A stretch of 37,937 bases of DNA from Roseburia sp. (GTDB lineage Bacteria; Bacillota; Clostridia; Lachnospirales; Lachnospiraceae). Location: the NCBI GenBank assembly GCA_023664725.1, contig JAMPFA010000018.1, positions 1-37,937 on the forward strand. Direction: 5' to 3'. This document shows positions 23,400-34,503 of this stretch, in pieces. The position numbers were made by a program, and so were the translations under genes. Positions within the stretch are counted from its first letter, which is position 1, and each line of letters starts with the position of its first letter. Below the pieces are notes generated by a model. The model was not told the DNA's origin, ran no database searches, and saw nothing but the letters and a program-made list of their open reading frames with translations.

Positions 23400-23650
23400 C
23401 TTGTCGGACTGAACAGCTTGTAATGCAAGGTGATTCCGGGCGGCAAACCCACAAAGGGGTAGCTGGCGGCAGCCAGCGCAGGGTGCAAAACGTCCAGTGG
23501 ACGTTTGTTCTGCGCCGACCGAAGCGGAGCGTCTCCTGTGATGATTGGAGCGGAGCGGAAATCATCTGCTGTCCGCAGGACGCCCCCGGCAGGTGGTGTA
23601 TAGTTGCGCCCCCCTTTCAGAGGGGGAGCCATGCCTGGCAGCTTCAGAAA
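23400..23650. other. GC-rich palindromic mobile-element DNA
   Basis: Short perfect palindromes occur close together: GCTGGC-GGCA-GCCAGC at 23462-23477 and AAACGTCC-AGT-GGACGTTT at 23488-23506, followed by CCCCC...GGGGG at about 23612-23626. The G+C content is much higher than in flanking DNA. Such regions recur between genes of Tn1549-like integrative elements. No convincing gene is seen; it could be transfer-origin or attachment-type DNA. Confidence 0.45.
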
Positions 23651-24254
23651 TGCAAAATGCACATCTGATTATAACTTCCATGTTCTCCAAACACTTCCAG
23701 AAGAATATCCCCTCTGCAAAATATTTATCAGTGCGCCAGCTCTTTTTCTTTTCTGTCGGGATAAATCTTTCCGGCAACCACGGCAGCATAGCTCTGTATC
23801 TTGATTTCACCTTCCTGTTGCTGCGCTTGGCGTTCCGATAACCTTCATCGGAGAAATAGAAGCGGAATCGTTCTCCCTGAAAACCGATGAAACAGTCCTT
23901 TTTTACTTCCAATGTAATCATATGACGCATTTCCGGCATGAACCGTTCTTCCCCTGATAGGTCATGCCTCTGCATGATTGATTTCTGTGCCTGTGATTGT
24001 GCCTTTGCCGCCGCAAGCCGCTGGCGGATGGATTTATCCTGCGCTGCCATGAGATGAGCTTTCGTGGCAGCGACAAACTGGCTGCACTCCGGCTCTGGAA
24101 TCCGTTCCAATTTCCGGATAGCACTTTCCAAGATTTCCTTTGTCTGCAGATCCTTTATCAGCGGCAAGATTTCCTTCATGCCCGCAAGCGTATCCTCTTT
24201 GCCCGGCGCGGCATACTGATAGATGATATTAAGCTCGTCTCTTGAAAAATTCAT
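23562..24254 (-). CDS. transposon-transfer-assisting (TTRAP-like) protein, probably 3' fused
   Basis: A 230-aa reading frame. The N-terminal 95 residues (MNFSRDELNIIYQYAAPGKE, then KEILESAIRKLERI) resemble the TTRAP family found on Tn1549/CTn-type conjugative elements. A Lys/Arg-rich second part (about 110-200) with GFQGERFRFYFSDEGYRNA is not recognised. The last 20 residues come from the GC-rich palindromic DNA and look accidental, so the natural end was probably lost. There is no clear ribosome binding site before ATG 24254 and the upstream side meets a metB-like fragment after about 20 bp, so expression is doubtful. Confidence 0.55.
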   Translation of the reverse strand: MNFSRDELNIIYQYAAPGKEDTLAGMKEILPLIKDLQTKEILESAIRKLERIPEPECSQFVAATKAHLMAAQDKSIRQRLAAAKAQSQAQKSIMQRHDLSGEERFMPEMRHMITLEVKKDCFIGFQGERFRFYFSDEGYRNAKRSNRKVKSRYRAMLPWLPERFIPTEKKKSWRTDKYFAEGIFFWKCLENMEVIIRCAFCISEAARHGSPSERGAQLYTTCRGRPADSR

Positions 24255-24269
24255 TATGTGGGCTATTCC

Positions 24270-24769
24270 CTGCCTTTTGTGCAAAGGCGGCTTTTCTCCG
24301 GGAGACCATTTGATTGTGGACGCAGACCTTTATGGGGGAAGCATATGGCTTTTTCATAATGTATCAGAAAAAACGGAATTACATTCTCAAGTATTGATTG
24401 TTATAAAGAAGATGTGGAGAGTTATATTAGTGAGAATACAAAGGTAATTTACATTGAGACTCCCACCAATCCCATGATGAATGTTACAGATATAGAGACG
24501 CTTGGGGAAATAGCAAAAAAGTATAATTTGCATAGGCGATTTTAGAGAAAGTCCGCATAATTAAGTTTGCAGAAAGTCTTGGAGGCGTAGAGACGCTGAT
24601 TACTTATCCGACAACACAGACACATGCAGATGTGCCAAAAGAAATCAGGGAAAGAAATGGGATTACAGAAAGCACACTCAGACTTTCTGTTGGAATTGAG
24701 GATGTAAAGGATTTGCTCTTTGAACTGGATAAAGTTTTTCGTGAAATAGAAGGTGAATTACATGGCTGA
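24270..24769 (+). pseudogene. cystathionine gamma-synthase-type PLP enzyme, deleted and frameshifted
   Basis: Three collinear pieces of a Cys/Met-metabolism PLP enzyme (MetB/MetY/MGL type). The first reads SPGDHLIVDADLYGGSIWLF, then shifts frame at an A-run (24368-24373). The second reads GITFSSIDCYKEDVESYISE, then KVIYIETPTNPMMNVTDIET up to KKYNL. The third, after about 24535, reads ILEKVRIIKFAESLGGVETL to LRLSVGIEDVKDLLFELDKV and stops at 24769. The middle, with the PLP-binding lysine, and the first about 100 residues are missing. The ATG of the next small ORF overlaps the stop, as in a natural operon. Confidence 0.85.
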
Positions 24770-24809
24770 AAGAAATCTTGATTTTAACAATCTTGAAAAA
24801 AGAATATAA
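24762..24809 (+). pseudogene. possible PatB/MalY N-terminal scrap
   Basis: ATG 24762 overlaps the preceding stop and encodes MAERNLDFNNLEKRI before a stop. MAERNLDF resembles the N-terminus of PatB/MalY-type cystathionine beta-lyases, which often follow metB-type genes. Too short to be sure. Confidence 0.3.
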
Positions 24810-25038
24810 GGATGAAAAAGAAGTAACTGGAGTGGGCAAAATCCCTATGACATTTATCCGAGCCCCTTTTGTAGAAAGTGCGGGAGCAGATACAGAGATT
24901 ATTGCAAGGGTGGATAGAAATATCGTTGGGGTAAAATATCATAACCAGATCGGCGTTTTCTTTCATCCGGAGGTTACAGAATGTACCAGACTGCATGAAT
25001 ACTTTTGGAGAATATGTCAGGTTCATTTCAAACCATAG
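24795..25038 (+). pseudogene. PdxT (PLP synthase glutaminase) C-terminal fragment
   Basis: Reads VTGVGKIPMTFIRAPFVESA, then RNIVGVKYHNQIGVFFHPEV and TRLHEYFWRIC to a stop at 25038. This is the end of the PdxT glutamine amidotransferase, with the His-Pro-Glu of the catalytic triad in FHPEV. The N-terminal two-thirds, including the nucleophile cysteine, is missing and replaced by the scrap of another gene. PdxT supplies ammonia for pyridoxal phosphate, the cofactor of the neighbouring enzymes. Confidence 0.75.
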
Positions 25039-25091
25039 ACAATATCTATTATGTAAAAGGAATAATCTATTACCTTGAGTGAGAAAATCTA

Positions 25092-25120
25092 TTGACAAGA
25101 TAAATAGGAAAAAGTATAAT
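25092..25120 (+). promoter_or_regulatory. perfect-consensus promoter of the cysK region
   Basis: TTGACA at 25092-25097, exactly 17 bp, and TATAAT at 25115-25120, some 290 bp before cysK, giving a long leader. Confidence 0.85.
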
Positions 25121-25147
25121 GTGTAGTATAAAGCAAAACCTATAAAA

Positions 25148-25164
25148 CCTATTATACAAATAGG
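25148..25164. promoter_or_regulatory. inverted repeat, candidate operator
   Basis: CCTATT-ATACA-AATAGG is a perfect 6-bp inverted repeat with a 5-bp centre, about 20 bp downstream of the expected transcription start. A-T rich, CCTATT-type sites fit an Rrf2/CymR-like or similar regulator of cysteine genes. The assignment is inference. Confidence 0.5.
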
Positions 25165-25184
25165 GATTAAGAAAGGAGCAGCCA

Positions 25185-25259
25185 GTGGCAGGTTCTGTAG
25201 TTATGAACTTGAAAGATGTTAGCAGAGCGATCAAACAAATATTAATTTTATGGAGGTAA
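25185..25259 (+). CDS. 24-aa leader-like ORF
   Basis: GTG 25185 follows GAAAGGAG by 8 bases and encodes a 24-aa peptide ([20 protein letters not shown], then ILWR) ending TAA at 25259, exactly at the first CsoR-like box. It may be the scrap of a lost gene or a leader peptide. No Cys run that would indicate cysteine attenuation. Confidence 0.3.
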
Positions 25260-25273
25260 TACCCCACGGGTAC
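25259..25273. promoter_or_regulatory. CsoR/CstR-like operator, box 1
   Basis: ATACCCCACGGGTAC: ATACCC and GGGTAC flank CAC, symmetric at 5 of 6 positions. The pattern matches known CsoR-family sites (ATACCC...GGGTAT). Confidence 0.55.
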
Positions 25274-25281
25274 AAGGTGAA

Positions 25282-25298
25282 TTGACACGAAGTGTCAA
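25282..25298. promoter_or_regulatory. perfect palindrome TTGACAC-GAA-GTGTCAA
   Basis: Seven-base arms with a 3-base centre between the two CsoR-like boxes. The arms contain a -35-like TTGACA. No good -10 follows, so it is more likely an operator or RNA hairpin. Confidence 0.6.
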
Positions 25299-25318
25299 GA
25301 GAGGGCGGCCTGGGCCGT

Positions 25319-25403
25319 ACCTATATGCCAAAAATCAGGCAAGAAGGAGGAAATACCCCACGGGTATACCTATATGCCAAAAATCAGGCAAGAAGGAGGA
25401 AAT
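25319..25403 (+). repeat. 49-bp-period tandem duplication before cysK
   Basis: A 36-base segment starting ACCTATATGCC and ending AAGGAGGAAAT occurs at 25319-25354 and again at 25368-25403, identical. Between them lies the second CsoR-like box. The cysK ribosome binding site is therefore present twice; only the second is next to the start codon. Confidence 0.95.
25353..25367. promoter_or_regulatory. CsoR/CstR-like operator, box 2
   Basis: ATACCC-CAC-GGGTAT is a perfect inverted repeat. It immediately follows the first copy of the ribosome binding site (GGAGGAA). Confidence 0.6.
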
Positions 25404-25407
25404 CATT

Positions 25408-26346
25408 ATGAGTCAGATCAAAGAAAGTGCACTGGAGTTAATCGGAAAAACCCCGATACTGAAACTGAATGGGTATGCGAAGAAAGCGGGCGTGACAGAT
25501 GCCACAATTCTTGCAAAGCTGGAATATTTGAATCCGGCTGGTTCCGTGAAGGATCGTATTGCATTGGCAATGATTGAGGATGCGGAAAAGAAAGGTCTTT
25601 TAAAAGAGGGAGCAACCATTATTGAGCCTACCAGCGGGAATACCGGAATCGGTCTTGCTGCTGTTGCAGCGGCAAAGGGATATCGGGCAATCCTTACCCT
25701 GCCGGATACCATGAGCGTTGAGAGGAGAAATCTTTTAAAGGCATATGGTGCAGAGCTGGTGCTTACAGAGGGAGCTAAGGGAATGAAGGGGGCGATTGCA
25801 AAAGCAGAAGAGCTTTCTAAAGAAATTGACGGAGCAGTTATCTTAGGACAGTTTGTGAATCCGGCGAATCCGGCAGTGCATAAGGCTGCAACAGGACCGG
25901 AAATCTGGGAACAGACAGAGGGAAACGTTGACATTTTTGTTGCCGGTGTAGGAACGGGCGGAACCATCACGGGTGTCGGCGAATACTTAAAAGAAAAGAA
26001 TCCGGATGTGAAAATTGTGGCAGTTGAGCCAGCGGGAAGCCCTGTTTTGTCAAAGGGAACTCCGGGAGCGCATAAGATTCAGGGAATTGGTGCAGGATTT
26101 GTTCCGGAAGTTCTCAATACAAAAGTTTATGACGAAATTATTGCGATTGAGAATGAGGATGCATTTGCAGAAGGCAAGGCATTTGCTGTAAGTGAAGGAA
26201 TCCTTGTGGGGATATCTTCCGGCGCTGCGCTTAAGGCAGCAGTGATTCTTGCAAACAGACCGGAAAATAAAGGAAAGACGATTGTAGCATTACTTCCTGA
26301 CTCTGGTGATAGATATTTGTCTACTCCATTGTTTAATAATAATTAG
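25408..26346 (+). CDS. cysK: cysteine synthase (O-acetylserine sulfhydrylase)
   Basis: PLP enzyme of 312 aa joining O-acetylserine and sulfide to give cysteine. The PLP lysine is K48 in [11 protein letters not shown]. The substrate loop is [10 protein letters not shown], the phosphate-binding Gly-rich loop [17 protein letters not shown], and the C-terminal part ends [15 protein letters not shown], all as in CysK rather than CysM. It looks fully intact. Start ATG 25408 follows AAGGAGGAAATC at the right spacing. It is surrounded by fragments of other sulfur genes yet is itself complete, which suggests it is under selection. CsoR-like boxes and palindromes in the leader point to regulation by sulfide, persulfide or metal. 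Confidence 0.97.
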
Positions 26347-26369
26347 GAAACGCTGATGAAAGCGTTTCC
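26346..26369 (+). promoter_or_regulatory. intergenic hairpin between cysK and yezD
   Basis: GGAAACGCT (26346-26354) and AGCGTTTCC (26361-26369) pair over nine bases around a 6-nt loop, starting at the last base of the cysK stop. No T-run follows, so it is more likely an mRNA-stabilising or processing hairpin than a terminator. A second short one, CGGACA-GATTT-TGTCCG, lies at about 26409-26425. Confidence 0.6.
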
Positions 26370-26443
26370 TGCGCCGGATTTGCGCTGCAAATTCGTGTGC
26401 ATACGAAGCGGACAGATTTTGTCCGGATTGGAGGCGGATGTGA

Positions 26444-26602
26444 ATGAAAGAAACAGAAAATAAGCAGGTTTTGGATAGTTCGCATTTAGGCACTTTTGAA
26501 GAACTGTTAAGTGATATGAAATATGGAAGTATCACACTTATTATTCAGGATGGTAAAATTGTCCAAATAGATAAAACTGAAAAACACAGAATAAAAGACT
26601 GA
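26444..26602 (+). CDS. yezD: YezD family protein (DUF2292)
   Basis: A 52-aa protein of the YezD/DUF2292 family. The conserved part is LLSDMKYGSITLIIQDGKIVQIDKTEK, seen as the usual KYGSI...IQDGKIVQI pattern. In many Firmicutes yezD lies beside sulfate or cysteine assimilation genes, which fits its position after cysK; its biochemical role is unknown. The ATG at 26444 is preceded by GGAGGCGG. Followed by a strong terminator, so cysK and yezD form a unit. Confidence 0.85.
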   Translation: MKETENKQVLDSSHLGTFEELLSDMKYGSITLIIQDGKIVQIDKTEKHRIKD

Positions 26603-26610
26603 CTGGAAAA

Positions 26611-26655
26611 CCAGAGGTTTTGTTAAAAAGAGTAACAGGACCTCTGGCTTTTTCT
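26611..26655 (+). terminator. rho-independent terminator after yezD
   Basis: CCAGAGGT-TT-TGTTA pairs with TAACA-GG-ACCTCTGG across a 7-nt loop and an internal mismatch pair, followed by CTTTTTCTTT. Confidence 0.9.
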
Positions 26656-26728
26656 TTATTACTCGTTATATTTTGCATAATATTTTCTGTTCTGAATCGT
26701 TACATATTATAGTGAAAGAAGGTGTAGC

Positions 26729-27082
26729 ATGAGCAATACATATCAGGATCTGCAAAACTCCCATCTATGTTTTGGCGGTTATAAAAATAATGCGGGACGG
26801 ATTCATCTTCCGGTTAGTCCGGGATGTAACATTGCCTACCGTTTTTGTGACAGGGTGATCAATGATGTGGAGGAGCGGCCGGGAGTGACCTCAAAAGTGA
26901 TAACGCCTGAGGAAAGTCTGGAAATTCTTAGAAAAGTCTCGGCTGCCGGCTTTACAATAAAGAAAAATACGGTGCTTGTCCCGGAGATTAATGGTGGGCA
27001 TATAGAAGAAATTGCAAAAACCGTAAAAGAGGCAGGTGCAAGCATTTGGGCGGATTGTCCACAAAAGGCGGGCAGAAGCTGA
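26729..27082 (+). pseudogene. NifB-like radical SAM gene, internally deleted
   Basis: Starts with a good ATG 26729 and reads a NifB N-terminus (AGRIHLPVSPGCNIAYRFCDR, then RPGVTSKVITPEESLEILRK), then jumps to the NifB C-terminal half ([20 protein letters not shown]) with the central barrel missing. In the FeS motif CX3CX2C the second cysteine is Tyr (C33, Y37, C40), so no radical SAM cluster could form. The frame ends out of phase in cysE-derived DNA (from about 27040). In this group NifB-like genes stand alone without nitrogenase. Confidence 0.75.
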
Positions 27083-27249
27083 AAGGAGTAAAGAGACACC
27101 CGACAATTGGAGATAATGTTACGATTTACTCCGGTTCTTCTATTTTAGGCGGTGATACGGTAATTGAAGAAAATGTTGTAGTGGGAATCACAAGGTATCT
27201 GGCAAACGATTTCAGTTTTACCCCCATGTTTGTGGTTAACAAGCAATGA
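27043..27249 (+). pseudogene. serine acetyltransferase (CysE) C-terminal fragment
   Basis: In a different frame from the nifB fragment the DNA reads [20 protein letters not shown], then [21 protein letters not shown] and [12 protein letters not shown] to a stop at 27249. These are the left-handed beta-helix hexapeptides that end CysE/EpsC. The catalytic N-terminal part is missing. CysE makes O-acetylserine, the substrate of CysK, so cysteine synthesis would need another copy elsewhere. Confidence 0.8.
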
Positions 27250-27511
27250 ACGTGAAGCAGCCTTAGAAAAGGATATCCAGTTTATACTGGCATCATTCCC
27301 AATGAATGAGAGGCTGGTTTTTCTTTGCGTATTTTTTGTCCGTAAAGACAGGCGTTCTTTCTGGTTTGAGCCGGAAAGAAGGAAAAATGCAGGCTATACG
27401 CTGGAACAGTTTGGAGAAAAGATCGGTTTGTCATACCGTTCCATAGCGGATTTTGCAGCAAAGATCAGGCAAGGGGAATGTTACTCTTTCCCTGCCATAT
27501 CTTTTTCTTGA
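27250..27511 (+). pseudogene. unrecognised ORF fragment with HTH-like segment
   Basis: Open frame reading [31 protein letters not shown] and GYTLEQFGEKIGLSYRSIAD, the last resembling an HTH. It has no start of its own (ATG 27302 is possible but has no ribosome binding site), and it begins in the cysE fragment. Fills the gap between 27250 and the next promoter. I do not recognise the family. Confidence 0.3.
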
Positions 27512-27536
27512 CGGAATAAATAGCCGTTGTTAGAAT
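27508..27536 (+). promoter_or_regulatory. sigma-A promoter for the DUF2262-kinase-TLP operon
   Basis: TTGACG at 27508-27513, exactly 17 bp, and TAGAAT at 27531-27536, 60 bp before the first gene. Confidence 0.7.
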
Positions 27537-27595
27537 ATATTGTGTAGCTTATACAAAGTCAATCATTCTAAAGAACAGTTCCTAAGGAGGATTAA

Positions 27596-28441
27596 ATGAG
27601 CATAAGAACACGATTTGAATCAAGATTCGATGAGGAAATCATAGATCTGCTGGTGCTGGTGAAAACACGTAACGGCGCACACATTGAAAAAAATATGATA
27701 CAGCCCAGTGTGGATTTTTTTGCTTCTTTCAACCTGACTACGGGTGAATTTTCTCCGAAAAAAGGAATTCTTGAATGGATCATCAAAGAAAGACCGGACA
27801 GATTTGACTGGGGTTTTGATTTTAAGCCCTTTGAGATATACCATATAAAGGCAAGAAAAAAGACAAGGGAATCCATTGATCTGCCCAAGTCACTGGCGTA
27901 TATGAATAACTGTTATATGGTAGTGGACATTGTGGAGGAGTCGGTCTCTCATCCAAAGCTGGATAAAATCAGGGAAAAGGCGACAAAGCCTGTGGTGATA
28001 GAAGATGAACAGGTTGGAACGTTTGTATTGAACAGGCAGGATTCCCTGTTTTATGGCGCCATGGAATGGATGGGGAGAGAATGCACGGTGCTTTTAGACC
28101 CAGATAATGAGAAAGAGAATACAGCGAAAAAGGCATTTTTGCATTATAAGGAATTACATAAAGACATGGAAACAAGGTATCGTCAATACTGTAACTATGC
28201 AGCAGAGGAATTGACGGACTTGGCCAATGAGTGGCTGGAAGACTGTGAAGATGACGGCAAAACAGCCACACCTGTCACAAAAGAAGAATTTGCGGACAGG
28301 ATACGGCTGAAAGAATTGTCCATTGCACCAGAAGGGGATATAACGTTGTATTTTGATGATGACGATATATTTGGGGGACATTCTGTGATCGTGGAAGCGG
28401 ATATCAATGGGGAAATTTTTTCTGCAGATATCATTGGATAA
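27596..28441 (+). CDS. DUF2262 domain-containing protein
   Basis: A 281-aa cytosolic protein. The C-terminal about 150 residues fit DUF2262: GTFVLNRQDSLFYGAMEWMG, then TPVTKEEFADRIRLKELSI, then LYFDDDDIFGGHSVIVEADING, with the characteristic acidic patch and GHS/V motif and ending near residue 281. The N-terminal about 120 residues are a separate alpha/beta part with LDLPK-like IDLPKSLAYMNNCYMVVDIVE. No signal peptide or membrane helix. Start ATG 27596 follows AAGGAGG. It heads a probable operon with a polynucleotide-kinase-like protein and a Thg1-like polymerase, so an RNA-related role is inferred; the domain itself has no established function. Confidence 0.75.
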   Translation: MSIRTRFESRFDEEIIDLLVLVKTRNGAHIEKNMIQPSVDFFASFNLTTGEFSPKKGILEWIIKERPDRFDWGFDFKPFEIYHIKARKKTRESIDLPKSLAYMNNCYMVVDIVEESVSHPKLDKIREKATKPVVIEDEQVGTFVLNRQDSLFYGAMEWMGRECTVLLDPDNEKENTAKKAFLHYKELHKDMETRYRQYCNYAAEELTDLANEWLEDCEDDGKTATPVTKEEFADRIRLKELSIAPEGDITLYFDDDDIFGGHSVIVEADINGEIFSADIIG

Positions 28442-28592
28442 AAATATGTGCTGTCAATGATTCTTGGCAGCGGTGATGCATTCCATCTTCTCCCACGCAC
28501 CTATGCATTATGTACAACTGGTCTGGATCGTGTCAATGGGATATCATGATAGGATGGATTTATGGGTGCATTAGAAAGAAAACGGAGTATTC

Positions 28593-29078
28593 ATGAAAGA
28601 TTTATCAGAAAAGACAGCAATTATTTTTATTGGTATTCAGGCCAGCGGGAAATCGACTTTTTATCATGAACGGTTTGAGGATTATGTTCATATTAACCTG
28701 GATACCTTACATACAAGAAATAAAGAGAAGATGTTGTTGCAGGAATGTGTGGAAAGAGGGTACTCTTTTGTGGTGGATAATACAAATCCAACGAGGGCAG
28801 ACAGGGAGAAGTACATTCAGGCCGCAAGAGAGAATGGTTATCGTATCCATGGCTATTACTTTCAGTCCTCCATTTCCGATTGCATTGCAAGAAATCGAAA
28901 ACGGGAAGGGAAAGCAAGGATACCGGATCAGGCTGTGGCGGGTACGCATCACAAACTGGAACTTCCGGAATATGGGGAGGGATTCGACGAACTTTTCTAT
29001 GTCTGTTTGAAAGGTGGAAGCTTTCATGTAGATGAGTGGTGCGAAGGAAAAGAACAGGGGGAAATTTATGAATTTTGA
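28593..29078 (+). CDS. polynucleotide-kinase-like P-loop kinase
   Basis: A 161-aa AAA_33-type kinase. Walker A is FIGIQASGKST (residues 12-22), with INLDTL (D36) as the acceptor-activating Asp region. VVDNTNPTRADREKYIQAA matches the DTN...R motif of T4-Pnk-type 5'-kinases. The lid is IARNRKREGKARIPDQAV with a run of Arg/Lys, fitting binding of phosphorylated nucleotide or RNA ends. It overlaps the TLP gene by 11 bp, so they are co-translated. Whether it phosphorylates RNA 5' ends or a small molecule cannot be read from sequence. Confidence 0.8.
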   Translation: MKDLSEKTAIIFIGIQASGKSTFYHERFEDYVHINLDTLHTRNKEKMLLQECVERGYSFVVDNTNPTRADREKYIQAARENGYRIHGYYFQSSISDCIARNRKREGKARIPDQAVAGTHHKLELPEYGEGFDELFYVCLKGGSFHVDEWCEGKEQGEIYEF

Positions 29079-29829
29079 TGATTTTGATCAGGAAATGCGC
29101 ATTTACGAAGAATCCATTGACCAGTATATTCTGCCTGATCTGTATATTGTGGCACGATTGGATGGCAGATCTTTTACCAGGCTAACAAAGGAAATATGTA
29201 AATTCGAAGCGCCATTTGATATCAAATTCAGAGATTTGATGATCGAGACAGTGAAAACTCTGATGAATGTTGGATTCCGCATCGTATACGGCTTTACCGA
29301 AAGCGATGAGATATCGCTTCTGTTTCATCCCAAAGACCGTACATTTGGCAGGAAAGTCCGCAAGATTAATACGACTTTGGCAGGGGAAGCCAGTGCAGCG
29401 TTTTCGTTGGCGTTAGGGAAAGCAGCAACATTTGATTGTCGCGTGGTTCCGCTGCCAAACAAGGACAGGGTCGCAGACTACTTTGCATGGCGACAGGAGG
29501 ACGCACATCGGAATTCCTTAAATTCGCACTGTTATTGGGCTCTCCGTAAAGAGGGGGAAAGCCAGAATGATGCTACAATGAAATTAGAGGGGAAGAGTGT
29601 GGCATATAAGAATGAACTGCTGTTTCAGAAAGGTATCAATTATAATGAGCTTCCGTCATGGCAGAAAAGAGGGATTGGTGTTTATTTTACGGATACTCAG
29701 AAAGAGGGGTTTAACCCGGTTAAAAAAGAAAAGGTCATAACACAGAGAAGAGAGCTGTTTGTGGATTATGAGATCCCTCTTGATGAAGCTTACAGGAAAT
29801 TTGTATTGCAATTTCTTGATGAGGGTTGA
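29068..29829 (+). CDS. Thg1-like protein (TLP), 3'-5' RNA polymerase family
   Basis: A 253-aa member of the Thg1/TLP family, whose members add nucleotides in the 3'-5' direction, typically repairing 5'-truncated tRNAs in bacteria. Metal-binding residues are seen as D32-G33-R34 in ARLDGRSFTRLTK and D80-E81 in TESDEISLLF, matching the two carboxylate sites of human Thg1 (D29, D76/E77). Downstream conserved parts include RKVRKINTTLAGEASAAF and WRQEDAHRNSLNSHCYWALR, the latter with the family's HxxN-type motif. I chose ATG 29068 after AGGGGGAAATTT since the N-terminus MNFDDFDQEMRIYE matches the family; the reading frame upstream lies within the kinase gene. Confidence 0.92.
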   Translation: MNFDDFDQEMRIYEESIDQYILPDLYIVARLDGRSFTRLTKEICKFEAPFDIKFRDLMIETVKTLMNVGFRIVYGFTESDEISLLFHPKDRTFGRKVRKINTTLAGEASAAFSLALGKAATFDCRVVPLPNKDRVADYFAWRQEDAHRNSLNSHCYWALRKEGESQNDATMKLEGKSVAYKNELLFQKGINYNELPSWQKRGIGVYFTDTQKEGFNPVKKEKVITQRRELFVDYEIPLDEAYRKFVLQFLDEG

Positions 29830-29902
29830 CAGATGGGCAGCAGCGCTACAAATCTTCATTCTACCACAGGTGATGCAGCATGGAAGGGCTTAGGCGGATA
29901 TA

Positions 29903-29932
29903 TTGACATAGTAAGCGTTATTCTGGTATTAT
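29903..29932 (+). promoter_or_regulatory. sigma-A-like promoter of the c-di-GMP operon
   Basis: TTGACA at 29903-29908, an 18-bp spacer and TATTAT at 29927-29932, 40 bp before the phosphodiesterase gene. Confidence 0.6.
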
Positions 29933-29971
29933 GAACTTGCTGAAGAAGGAATTATATGCGAGGGATAAACT

Positions 29972-32257
29972 ATGAGAAACATATATACCACATTACTGTT
30001 GATCTTCGCAGTTGCTATTTTTATCTGCAGTTATGTAATTGGCAAACGGGATAAGAGACCGCTGACGAAGGCGATACGCTACATAATGATTGCGGCCCCC
30101 TGTACCATGGCAATTTATGCGGCGGCGCTGATTGTGCCTACGCAGTTTTCGGCGGAACTGATGTATGCGATATACTATACGGTGTCGGATGTGCTGCTGA
30201 TCTGTATGCTGTTCTATACATTGAAATACACCAATGTCTATGAGATGCGGGCTTGGCAGAAGGCGGTTCTCTATTTGGCGGTTGCCGTGGACGGCCTGTT
30301 TATGCTGTTGAATGTCTTTACTGACAAAGTATTTATTTTTCAATGCGGCCAGATGGAGGATGCAGGCACTTTCTTTTATGGTATTGCAGAGCGTGGCAGA
30401 TTGTATAATTTTCACAGGTTTATTATATACGGTATGGTAGTGCTGGTGGTGTTGCCGCTGGTGGTAAAGATTGTGAAATCGCCGGTGATGTACCGCAAAA
30501 AGTTCTGGCTTACGCTAATCAGTCTTATGATCATTATAGTTGCCAATGTGCTTTATCTCTTGATGGGTCTGGAGATAGACTTTTCGGTGCTTACCTATGG
30601 TATCATGGCACTGGCAATTTATTACTTTAATGTAATTTATGTCCCCCAGGGACTGGTAGAGGGTCTTTTGTCTTCCAGTATAAAGAATATGGATGACAGT
30701 GTGGTGTGCTTTGATATTGAGGGAAACTGTATCTATGCCAATTCTGTGGCATATGGCTTTTTTAAGGCGGAAAGCACGAGGCCTTTCGAGGACTATTACA
30801 GGGAGCGGATGAATGGCAGACAGCTTTCAGAGGCGGAGGATGCGGAGTGGAAGGAAACCAGGGAGGTAAATTCCGCAAAGAGATATTATGATGTGAGTTT
30901 TAAGCGGCTGTGTGACAGCAATGACAACTGTGTTGGCTGCTTTTTTAAGATGCACGATGAGACAGTTGAGGTGGAGAAGCTGGCAACGGAGCGTTTCCGG
31001 GCCACTCATGACCGTCTCACGGGGATATATAATAAAGAGCATTTTTATGATGTTGTGACGGATGTGGTGAGGGAAGCGGAGCCGGGAACTTATTGTATGA
31101 TCTGCTCTGACATTAAGAACTTTAAGCTTGTGAATGATATTTTCGGGATCAATGTAGGCGACGAGGTGCTGTTAAATATTGCTGATGCACTTAAGCGGCT
31201 GGCAAAGCCCGGCTCTGTCTATGGCAGGCTTTCAGGAGACAGATTTGCCATATGTATGCCCAAAGAGCGTTTTGACCCTGATATGTTTTCCAATGAAATC
31301 AGGCACATAGGGGAGAAGAGCGGCACAGCGACTTACCGCATCTGTGTGCATATGGGTGTCTATGATATTGTTGACAAGAACATAGCGGTTTCTGTTATGT
31401 GTGACAGAGCTTTTATGGCGATAAAGACCATCAAGGCCAGTCTTGCGGATGTGATAGCCCATTATGATGAGGGAATCCGGGAGAGCAGCGTCAGCGAGCA
31501 GAAGGTGGCGGGAGCCTTTGGCAATGCTCTCGAGGAGGGGCAGTTCTGCTTTTACATTCAGCCACAGGTTTCTGTTCTGGGGAAGATTCTGGGCGGAGAG
31601 GCATTGGTGCGTTGGATCCATCCGGAACGGGGCATGATTCCGCCTTTTGAATTTATCGGAATTCTGGAGAATACGGGACTGATCTGCAGGCTGGATATGT
31701 ACGTATGGGAACTTGCCTGCAGGAAGCTTCGTGAGTGGAAGGATAGGGGGCTTACGGATTACCATATCTCCGTGAACATTTCTCCGAAGGACTTTTACTT
31801 TGCAGATATTTATAAGGTATTTACCGGGCTTGTGGAGAAATATGAGATCAGACCCCGCAATCTCCGGCTTGAAATTACGGAAAGCGCCGTCATGAGTGAT
31901 TTTGACAAGCAGCTTGTGCTGATTAAACGGCTGCAGGAGTATGGCTTTATGGTGGAGATGGATGATTTTGGAAGCGGCTATTCTTCTCTTAACATGCTAA
32001 AGGATATGCCGGTGAACACCCTCAAGGTGGATATGGGCTTTTTGAGACAGACAAATAATCAGGAGCGCAGCAGAACGATCCTAAAGATGGTTATCTCTCT
32101 GTCAAAGCAGCTTGGCATGGAAGTGGTTACAGAGGGCGTGGAGACCAAAGAGCAGGTGGATTTCCTGACAGAAATCGGCTGCGATATTTTCCAGGGTTAC
32201 TATTTTGCGAAGCCTATGCCGGTTGGTGAATTTGAGCAGAAATATTTTGACAGATAA
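29972..32257 (+). CDS. 7TM-PAS-GGDEF-EAL c-di-GMP phosphodiesterase
   Basis: A 761-aa membrane protein. Seven hydrophobic helices (about 1-225) form a histidine-kinase-type 7TM sensor, followed by a PAS-like domain (about 230-330). The GGDEF domain (about 340-500) is degenerate: the signature reads SGDRF, so it likely cannot make c-di-GMP and may bind GTP as a sensor. The EAL domain (about 510-755) is complete: E543-A-L in EALVRW, N602, E634, D664/D665 in DDFGSG, K685, E721 and Q741. It therefore should break down c-di-GMP. Starts at ATG 29972 after GAGGGATAA. A separate diguanylate cyclase lies 2.3 kb downstream. Confidence 0.93.
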   Translation: MRNIYTTLLLIFAVAIFICSYVIGKRDKRPLTKAIRYIMIAAPCTMAIYAAALIVPTQFSAELMYAIYYTVSDVLLICMLFYTLKYTNVYEMRAWQKAVLYLAVAVDGLFMLLNVFTDKVFIFQCGQMEDAGTFFYGIAERGRLYNFHRFIIYGMVVLVVLPLVVKIVKSPVMYRKKFWLTLISLMIIIVANVLYLLMGLEIDFSVLTYGIMALAIYYFNVIYVPQGLVEGLLSSSIKNMDDSVVCFDIEGNCIYANSVAYGFFKAESTRPFEDYYRERMNGRQLSEAEDAEWKETREVNSAKRYYDVSFKRLCDSNDNCVGCFFKMHDETVEVEKLATERFRATHDRLTGIYNKEHFYDVVTDVVREAEPGTYCMICSDIKNFKLVNDIFGINVGDEVLLNIADALKRLAKPGSVYGRLSGDRFAICMPKERFDPDMFSNEIRHIGEKSGTATYRICVHMGVYDIVDKNIAVSVMCDRAFMAIKTIKASLADVIAHYDEGIRESSVSEQKVAGAFGNALEEGQFCFYIQPQVSVLGKILGGEALVRWIHPERGMIPPFEFIGILENTGLICRLDMYVWELACRKLREWKDRGLTDYHISVNISPKDFYFADIYKVFTGLVEKYEIRPRNLRLEITESAVMSDFDKQLVLIKRLQEYGFMVEMDDFGSGYSSLNMLKDMPVNTLKVDMGFLRQTNNQERSRTILKMVISLSKQLGMEVVTEGVETKEQVDFLTEIGCDIFQGYYFAKPMPVGEFEQKYFDR

Positions 32258-32296
32258 AAAGATTCTATTGATATGATGTGACCGGAGGTGTTTTTT

Positions 32297-33166
32297 TTGA
32301 AAGATAATGCAACAAAGCTTAAACATTATGTAAGGGAAATATCCAGCTATGTGATGCTGGTGATCGGTGCGGCGATTGCTGCATTTGCCATCGAGGAATT
32401 TTTGGTTCCATGTACAATCCTGGATGGCGGGATTGTGGGAATCTCCATCATGATCAATAACCTGAGCAAGTTTCCTCTTGGAATACTGACTCTGATACTT
32501 AACATTCCGTTTTTGTTGGCTGGCATGCGGAAGCTGGGAACGGAATTTATTGTCAAATCCGCAGTTGCCATGGTGGCATTTTCAAGTTTTCTGGAAATTT
32601 TTGCGCCGCTTACGGATGTTACCCATGAATATCTCCTGGCAGTCTGTTTTGGCGGAGTATTCTTAGGAGTAGGTGTTGGGCTTGTGATCCGTGCCGGCGG
32701 CTGCCTTGACGGAACAGAGGCGGTGGCGCTCTTCCTGAACAAAAAGTCTAACTTTCCGGTGGGACAGACGGTTCTCTTTATCAATGTTGTGATCTATACC
32801 GTGGCTGGTTTTCTGTTTGGATTTGACAGGGCTATGTACAGCCTGCTGACGTATTTTATCACATCAAAAGTCATTGATTTTGTGGAAACAGGAATGGAAC
32901 AGACGAAAGCAGCTATGATCATCACCGATGAAGGACAGTTGATCGCAGACGAAATCTATAAGAAAATGGGGCGCACAGTGACGATCCTGGAAGGAGAGGG
33001 CTTAATCAGCGGAAAGAAAATTGTTCTCTACTGTGTATTGAACATGTTTGAGATCCATGAACTGAGGCATCTGATCCAGGAGGTGGATGCCAGTGCATTT
33101 ATCACTATCAGCGACGTGTCGGAGATTATTGGAAATCATATTAAGAAGAAAGCAGATGTGGAATAA
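32297..33166 (+). CDS. YitT family membrane protein
   Basis: A 289-aa membrane protein of the YitT type (DUF161 plus DUF2179). Five helices in the first 190 residues with ILDGGIVGISIMI, RAGGCLDGTEAVALFLN and GFLFGFDRAMYSLLTYF are the conserved YitT motifs. A cytosolic C-terminal DUF2179 domain (about 205-280) includes TVTILEGEGLISGKKIVLYC. I chose a TTG start at 32297 because GGAGGTG (32284-32290) is then six bases upstream; a GTG at 32288 lies inside that ribosome binding site. The transport role of YitT proteins is not established. Confidence 0.85.
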   Translation: MKDNATKLKHYVREISSYVMLVIGAAIAAFAIEEFLVPCTILDGGIVGISIMINNLSKFPLGILTLILNIPFLLAGMRKLGTEFIVKSAVAMVAFSSFLEIFAPLTDVTHEYLLAVCFGGVFLGVGVGLVIRAGGCLDGTEAVALFLNKKSNFPVGQTVLFINVVIYTVAGFLFGFDRAMYSLLTYFITSKVIDFVETGMEQTKAAMIITDEGQLIADEIYKKMGRTVTILEGEGLISGKKIVLYCVLNMFEIHELRHLIQEVDASAFITISDVSEIIGNHIKKKADVE

Positions 33167-33192
33167 GTAAGAAAAGTTGGGAGGACATAACA

Positions 33193-34503
33193 ATGTGGGC
33201 ATATGAAAGCGTATTTTATCAAATTTATCCGTTAGGATTCTGTGGTGCGCCATTTGAAAATGATGGGAAAGAACAGTCCCGGATTCTGAAAGTGCTTGAC
33301 TGGATCCGGCATATTAAGAAATTGGGAGCCAATGCTGTCTATTTTTCGCCACTCTTTGAATCCGATACCCATGGATATAATACCAGAGATTACAAGAAGA
33401 TTGACTGCAGGCTGGGATCAAATGAGGATTTTGCAAAAGTGTGTGAAAAACTGCACGAGTCCGATATACGGATTGTGCTGGACGGTGTGTTTAATCATGT
33501 AGGCAGAGGTTTTTGGGCCTTTCAGGATGTTTTACAAAATCGGGAAAATTCCAGATATAAAGACTGGTTTCACATTGATTTCGGCGGAAATTCAAACTAC
33601 AACGACGGGCTTTGGTACGAGGGGTGGGAAGGTAATTTTGATCTGGTCAAATTAAACCTTCGGAATGAGGAAGTGATCTCGCATATTTTTGATGCGGTGA
33701 AATATTGGGTGGAGACGTTTGACATTGACGGGCTGCGTCTGGATGTGGCGTATTGTCTGGACAAAGAATTTCTGAAACGCCTACGAAAGTTCACGTACTC
33801 CCTGAAAGAAGATTTCTTTTTGGTGGGAGAGACACTGCATGGAGATTATAAGCAATGGGCAAATAGTGACATGTGTCATTCTGTCACAAACTATGAATGT
33901 TATCATGGGATGCACTCCAGTTTTAACAGCATGAATATGTTTGAAATCTGTCATTCCCTTTTAAGGCAGTATGGACCGGAGGAATGGACTTTATATAAGG
34001 GAATGCATTTGCTGAATTTTGTGGACAACCATGATGTAAGCCGGATTGCAAGCGTTCTAAACAATGAAAAGCATCTGCCGTTAATCTATGCCCTGTGCTT
34101 TGGCATGCCTGGCATTCCCTGTGTATATTACGGAAGCGAATGGGGAACAAAGGCAAATAAGAGTGAGGGAGATCCGGCGCTTCGCGCAAGCTTTGATCAG
34201 CCGGTATTTGGAGAATTGGCAGAGTGGATTGCAAAACTGGCAGAGATTAAGAAGAACAGTAAAGCTTTGAACTATGGTGGTTTCCGTTCTGTCATACTGA
34301 CGAATCATCAATGTATTTTTGAGCGTGCCTGCGAGGGTGAGAGAATACTGGTAGCAATCAATGCGTCTGAGACGCCCTTTACGGCACATTTTGATGCGGG
34401 ATGCGGCATGGCGGAGGAGCTTCTGACCGGGAAGCCCCATGATTTTGGCGGCGGCAGTGAGCTGCCTCCCTACTCCGCTTCTTTTTGGAAAATGGAGCGT
34501 TAG
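33193..34503 (+). CDS. GH13 alpha-glucosidase/alpha-amylase, cytosolic
   Basis: A 436-aa glycoside hydrolase family 13 enzyme. Conserved regions are DGVFNHVG (97-104), GLRLDVA with nucleophile D184, VGETLHG with acid/base E213, and FVDNHD with D281. No signal peptide, so it acts in the cytosol on imported maltodextrins. The short N-terminus begins directly with YESVFYQIYPLGFCG, the first barrel strand; a small C-terminal all-beta domain (about 370-436) follows. The ATG at 33193 follows GGGAGG. Lies in the same orientation and close to YitT and the cyclase gene. Confidence 0.93.
   Translation: MWAYESVFYQIYPLGFCGAPFENDGKEQSRILKVLDWIRHIKKLGANAVYFSPLFESDTHGYNTRDYKKIDCRLGSNEDFAKVCEKLHESDIRIVLDGVFNHVGRGFWAFQDVLQNRENSRYKDWFHIDFGGNSNYNDGLWYEGWEGNFDLVKLNLRNEEVISHIFDAVKYWVETFDIDGLRLDVAYCLDKEFLKRLRKFTYSLKEDFFLVGETLHGDYKQWANSDMCHSVTNYECYHGMHSSFNSMNMFEICHSLLRQYGPEEWTLYKGMHLLNFVDNHDVSRIASVLNNEKHLPLIYALCFGMPGIPCVYYGSEWGTKANKSEGDPALRASFDQPVFGELAEWIAKLAEIKKNSKALNYGGFRSVILTNHQCIFERACEGERILVAINASETPFTAHFDAGCGMAEELLTGKPHDFGGGSELPPYSASFWKMER

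Follow-up and report, generated by a model that had tools for sequence, protein, structure and literature searches.

The DNA analyzed here is a 37,937-bp stretch of Roseburia sp. contig JAMPFA010000018.1 (GCA_023664725.1), referred to below as the window, in which three adjacent genes encode a protein with a DUF2262 domain, a polynucleotide-kinase-type P-loop kinase and a Thg1-like protein (TLP). No enzyme family other than that of Thg1 and the TLPs is known to synthesize RNA in the 3'-to-5' direction. An earlier note on this DNA had read the three genes at 27508-29829 as one operon and as a possible undescribed module for RNA-end repair or action against nucleases. All three open reading frames (ORFs) were found on the forward strand at 27596-29829, in the order DUF2262 gene, kinase, TLP, and their Pfam domains agreed with these assignments (Table 1). 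The start of the TLP was taken at the ATG at 29068; a second in-frame ATG occurs at 29032. The 11-bp overlap between kinase and TLP that had been reported proved to be exact.

Table 1. Features of the window and RNA-repair genes found near TLP genes in other loci (L, locus; positions refer to the window).
Feature	Position or loci	Strand	Details
DUF7021+DUF2262 protein	27596-28441	+	281 aa; Pfam E 1.2e-24 (DUF7021), 7.2e-43 (DUF2262); co-directional neighbor
Stand-alone polynucleotide-kinase-type P-loop kinase	28593-29078	+	161 aa; Pfam AAA_33 E 3.4e-17; without phosphatase domain
Thg1-like protein (TLP), 3'-5' RNA polymerase	29068-29829	+	253 aa; Pfam Thg1 E 4.4e-31, Thg1C E 5.7e-18
TLP start within the 3' end of the kinase gene	29068-29078	+	11 bp, exact in sequence; likely translational coupling
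Conserved kinase-TLP cassette	28572-29842	+	widest stretch common to close relatives with unrelated flanks (blastn)
Promoter-like site before DUF2262 gene	27508-27536	+	TTGACG-17-TAGAAT, 10/12 consensus, TG before second hexamer
Protein with DUF5720 and TTRAP ('putative transposon-transfer assisting protein') domains	23565-24284	-	upstream mobile DNA
RtcB near TLP	L026, L030, L038, L039, L043, L045		
ATP ligases near TLP	L053, L054, L066		
T4 Rnl1-type ligases near TLP	L055, L075		
Hen1+Pnkp near TLP	L077		

Residues D32, D80, E81 and K99 of the TLP were invariant in 59/59 sequences; the first three are presumably the three metal-binding acidic residues of the Thg1 palm. Among solved structures, the TLP matched 5axk (E 3e-33) and the TLP of Bacillus thuringiensis (BtTLP, 4KGK/4KGM; E 1.8e-20 to 4kgk; PMC3701042). 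In the kinase, the Walker A motif, the catalytic Asp and the conserved arginines were invariant in 62/62 sequences, and PNKP headed both fold lists (Foldseek, VIA). The kinase had been described as T4-Pnk-like; its membership of the Pnk family was borne out, but it is closer to the kinase domain of PNKP than to T4 Pnk. No phosphatase domain was found in its 161 residues, which gave P-loop kinase type matches only, and it differs from the kinase domains of mammalian PNKP and C. thermocellum Pnkp and from T4 Pnk in standing alone, without a phosphatase or ligase domain. A kinase whose substrate is a DNA 5'-OH end or a small molecule, and whose link to the TLP is only indirect, would also fit the fold comparison: PNKP, which serves in DNA repair, is among the closest solved relatives, and small-molecule kinases such as gluconate kinase and PFKFB appear lower down the fold list. 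This alternative was judged very unlikely. Fungal, PSTK and zeta-toxin rows were also listed in the solved-structure comparison of the kinase.

Conservation of the gene pair was analyzed in 75 TLP loci from a scan of genome contigs and five usable loci from a draw of genomes of the same family. Kinase adjacency was counted over the 76 loci in which 450 bp or more precede the TLP; three loci with scant upstream DNA, two that lacked a usable TLP and the locus of the window itself were left out. A same-strand kinase adjoined the TLP in 61/76 loci, in a set that is skewed to relatives of the window's TLP, holds some near-copies and may count some genomes twice. The arrangement spans lineages, with records that include Chamaesiphon, Alkanindiges, Bacteroidales and a Deinococcus plasmid. 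Kinase and TLP overlapped in 39 of the 59 measurable pairs (overlap of 4 bp in 25 pairs, 11 bp in 11, 41 bp in two and 1 bp in one) and were spaced by 1-152 bp in the remaining 20. Nine close relatives have flanking DNA to either side of the pair (L008, L009, L011-L016, L073); by blastn they showed 83-90% DNA identity to the window, with similarity starting at 28572-28609 and ending at 29816-29842. No further similarity to 24001-33300 of the window was detected in these relatives outside that interval at E 1e-5; the neighboring genes are different, and a few loci share a flank with each other. These results indicated that kinase and TLP form a conserved two-gene cassette. The neighboring DUF2262 gene was judged to lie most likely outside the unit, whose limits exclude it.

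Among 200 genomes of the same family, a strong kinase match was found in four, all with an adjacent TLP, while a TLP scored above the cut-off in six; a seventh TLP match fell below the cut-off, and a fifth kinase match was weak (G033, E 7.9e-6, in a 411-aa frame). The hypergeometric probability of this co-occurrence was 2e-7 and rose to 8e-6 when the window's genome was left out. In 299 genomes of the phylum, a TLP was found in two and the kinase profile matched 30, with E <1e-50 in only three: the window, genome G221, in which the TLP is adjacent in reverse order, and G346, which has 113 bp of contig left beyond the match. Distances of kinase and TLP correlated over 48 loci (r 0.74), a value reached in 0/1000 permutations. 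In a tree of 118 TLPs, built by a quick method that gave long-branch warnings and containing 40 of 80 viral loci, the kinase-bearing rows were 65 of 86 in one large branch and one of 32 in the other, with 12 changes, against 38.3 in shuffles.

Relatives of the TLP were also common on virus contigs, where they occurred in 221/255 pattern stretches. In the best 80 of these (L111-L190), a strong adjacent kinase was present in two and a weak kinase match lay further off in one. Most phage TLPs fell in the branch with 32 rows rather than in that of the window's TLP; BtTLP probably belongs to this phage-rich branch, though it is itself not among the sequences of the tree. In three loci (L074, L078, L081), only parts of the TLP gene were close to the window's match, which may reflect rapid gain and loss; contig ends may account for some of these cases.

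Within 600 bp upstream of the kinase, a co-directional ORF was found in 47/61 loci and an opposite-strand ORF in eight, while six had none that near. In the window's strain, the co-directional gene ahead of the cassette is the DUF2262 gene. It lies 151 bp from the kinase, and neither a terminator-like site on the forward strand nor a consensus promoter was seen in between. The earlier statement that no terminator separates these two genes holds at the level of sequence patterns, but there is this gap between them. Because no consensus promoter precedes the kinase and a co-directional gene is usual upstream, the cassette may depend on local transcription. The site at 27508, which had been taken as the promoter of all three genes, is a real pattern; alone it proves nothing, because such sites are abundant locally (13 in the 3.2-kb stretch, compared with 7.7, sd 2.7, in shuffles). 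In the window's strain it is a possible read-through promoter for all three genes. Farther upstream, adjoining apparent fragments of radical-SAM, hexapeptide and HTH proteins at 26729-27508 represent decayed genes and, with the DUF5720/TTRAP protein at 23565-24284, make an earlier remark on mobile and decayed DNA a fair one. Scanning the window for Rfam families and tRNA genes gave no match.

No recurrent third partner was found among 135 neighbor proteins of kinase-bearing loci, hand-picked from 200 collected after duplicates and some others had been dropped: Pfam families had at most four members. Defense-protein models (PADLOC) gave scattered matches to the neighbor proteins, including GajA and GajB once each, and a single weak match to the three proteins of the window, of the kinase to DrmMI (E 0.03). 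In L015 (1116-4917), two genes upstream of the kinase-TLP pair resemble GajA and GajB by eye; the PADLOC match is not tied to that locus.

A three-gene system in which DUF2262 acts as a substrate binder or regulator would predict that the DUF2262 gene accompanies the pair elsewhere. The neighborhood comparison found the recurring set of DUF2262, kinase and TLP neither in the other TLP loci, where tblastn and profile searches placed DUF2262 near the TLP in 0/75, nor near any of 20 DUF2262 genes in 18 further genomes of the family, where neither a kinase nor a TLP was found; the DNA surrounding these 20 genes came as 32 overlapping stretches, of which 12 had lengths of 9-13 kb, and 12 of the genes were covered twice. 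In addition, the similarity of the cassette to its relatives stops at 28572. One genome-level result weighs on the other side: DUF2262 was present in 19/200 family genomes and in 4/6 TLP genomes (p 0.0008; 3/5 without the window's genome, p 0.006). In three of these TLP genomes (G092, G173, G194), DUF2262 and TLP are on different contigs, and the excess was read as a putative feature of accessory-rich genomes. The kinase-TLP pair thus occurs far above chance and the DUF2262-kinase-TLP triple does not, so that a three-gene system was considered extremely improbable and DUF2262 drops out of the RNA-repair model. In L195-L199, DUF2262 genes lie among genes for small orphan, DUF1877, UPF0167 and ankyrin proteins, surroundings that might represent an immunity-type array.

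The kinase-TLP pair itself is not undescribed, because it was published in 2010: in an account of bacterial Thg1 neighborhoods, the most persistent association was with an enzyme of the polynucleotide kinase family, and the RNA-repair role proposed was the same as that proposed here (Anantharaman, Iyer and Aravind, 2010; PMC2904730). Compared with the parts of that paper used here, the present analysis delimits the unit at both ends, counts the overlap over 59 pairs and documents RtcB and tRNA contexts as well as how seldom the kinase adjoins a viral TLP. A literature search whose scope excluded most subscription journals turned up no later paper that tests the pair. New elements are accordingly the cassette boundaries, the overlap counts, the association with RtcB and with tRNA arrays, and a substrate prediction open to test.

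The kinase-TLP pair probably serves as a two-gene cassette for the repair of RNA 5' ends, and the DUF2262 gene upstream is most likely unrelated to it. A 5'-OH end is the mark of metal-independent RNases. Repair would start after cleavage of an RNA, most probably a tRNA, by an RNase (probably a metal-independent toxin or defense nuclease) that removes 5' nucleotides and exposes a 5'-OH. The kinase, to judge from its family, fold and invariant residues, would then move a phosphate from an NTP (nucleoside triphosphate) to the 5'-OH. The TLP would activate this 5'-phosphate with ATP or GTP and would add nucleotides in the 3'-to-5' direction with the opposite strand as template, so that the stem is restored; activation and addition of this kind are reported for BtTLP and other TLPs. 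The overlap of the genes would hold kinase and TLP in step, and the pair would heal 5' ends only, because it is without a 3'-end phosphatase. Activity of TLPs on 5'-phosphorylated truncated tRNA is supported by published work (PMC3701042, PMC6471195). The earlier idea that a Pnk-like kinase readies 5' ends for the TLP was well supported by the conserved coupling, the sequence, the fold and the RNA-repair genes found nearby. The natural substrates of bacterial TLPs were described in 2019 as not entirely settled (PMC6471195); the tight coupling of the kinase to the TLP suggests that the natural substrate begins as a 5'-OH end, and makes the substrate question directly testable with two small proteins.

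An RNA-repair gene was present in the fetched flanks of 12/75 TLP loci (RtcB in six, RNA ligases in five, Hen1 with Pnkp in one; Table 1), based on seeds chosen by eye from the same loci, so that other repair genes may have been missed. These genes were confirmed by Pfam in L038, L053, L054, L066, L055 and L077, and the rest rely on tblastn to these; L055 also held KptA (Pfam). A PARG_cat_microb gene, which we take to encode a macro-like protein, lies upstream of the TLP in L006. Together with the ligases in L053, L054 and L066, it parallels the macro-domain and RNA-ligase genes described for a subset of neighborhoods in 2010 (PMC2904730). The six occurrences of RtcB, not all of them independent, compare with 0.08-0.15 expected for assumed genome sizes of 3.1 Mb, and RtcB was present in 6/6 TLP genomes, compared with 64/200 family genomes.

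The ligases near the TLP in L053, L054, L066, L055 and L075, and Hen1-Pnkp in L077, would also be consistent with production of 5'-adenylylated (App) RNA ends, an option raised in PMC2904730, in which the kinase phosphorylates, the TLP halts after activation and an RNA ligase seals. A ligase without an adjacent kinase occurs in L053, L054, L055 and L066, which likewise fits this option. However, tblastn with seeds from the same loci found no ligase near most kinase-TLP loci, and none was present among the scanned ORFs around the pair in the window. Moreover, the nucleotidyl-transfer carboxylates of the TLP are invariant, which argues that its polymerase function has been kept. Formation of App-RNA was therefore regarded as unlikely.

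tRNA genes were found in 8/75 TLP loci. T at position -1 of the tRNA-His genes of L039 (3082-3154) and L047 (6921-6992), both in tRNA clusters beside kinase-TLP, prompted consideration of a role for the TLP in adding G-1 to histidine tRNA, which is the function of Thg1 in eukaryotes. Among ten full-length tRNA-His genes from TLP genomes, from which two further matches cut by contig ends were left out, one other case, in L299, has T-1 (1/10), but G-1 is encoded in nine, among them other, presumably chromosomal, copies in the genomes of L039 and L047. All nine tRNA-His genes from 50 TLP-bearing virus records, which were drawn from the 80 viral TLP loci and for which 20 pattern places, chosen by eye, were fetched, encode G-1. 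Conversely, Thg1 was found in 0/42 virus records with tRNA-His, six of them with T-1, many of these records being fragments; they came from 43/80 pattern loci with tRNA-His called by ARAGORN, including what look like a few odd calls. The -1 bases of these were assigned by eye, and 42 of the loci were checked for Thg1. In these genes and virus records, the TLP does not appear to track a missing G-1. RNase P products already bear a 5'-phosphate, and a kinase would therefore be needless for G-1 addition. A role in G-1 addition was consequently disfavored as very improbable. No tRNA-His was recovered in the window's own assembly, and 20 tRNA genes were found in that genome. In the portion of the tRNA drawings covered, 5' acceptor ends were paired except in one tRNA-Met, whose C1 is unpaired as is usual for the initiator; nothing indicated 5' editing.

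In L038 (1-12750) and L039 (1-8930), the kinase-TLP pair lies within arrays of ten and seven tRNAs, respectively, with RtcB and a gene for a small HTH protein. This regulator is of the HTH_3 type in L047 (Pfam) and has relatives in L038, L039 and L045. L038 and L039 resemble the trn tRNA array of Anabaena, where array and RtcB respond jointly to translation stress under the repressor TrcR (PMC10272220); in contrast, the L047-type regulator is HTH_3 rather than RHH, the word Thg1 is absent from that paper, and the window is without tRNA. Tentatively, the cassette, without its own consensus promoter, might be exchanged among gut Firmicutes and beyond and give immunity to RNases that truncate tRNA 5' ends, with some elements adding RtcB, spare tRNAs and a small HTH regulator to form a transferable 'translation damage recovery' island; this extension seems possible but doubtful.

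Two plasmids carry related arrangements. On a Thiodictyon plasmid, a TLP and a nucleotidyltransferase, with no kinase annotated beside the TLP, lie near a BREX gene. On Deinococcus taeanensis plasmid p_TS293_5 (L109, 5525-10784), kinase and TLP overlap by 4 bp in a compact RNA-repair island, with Hen1 about 1 kb downstream of the pair and two nucleotidyltransferases, all within about 1-4 kb downstream.

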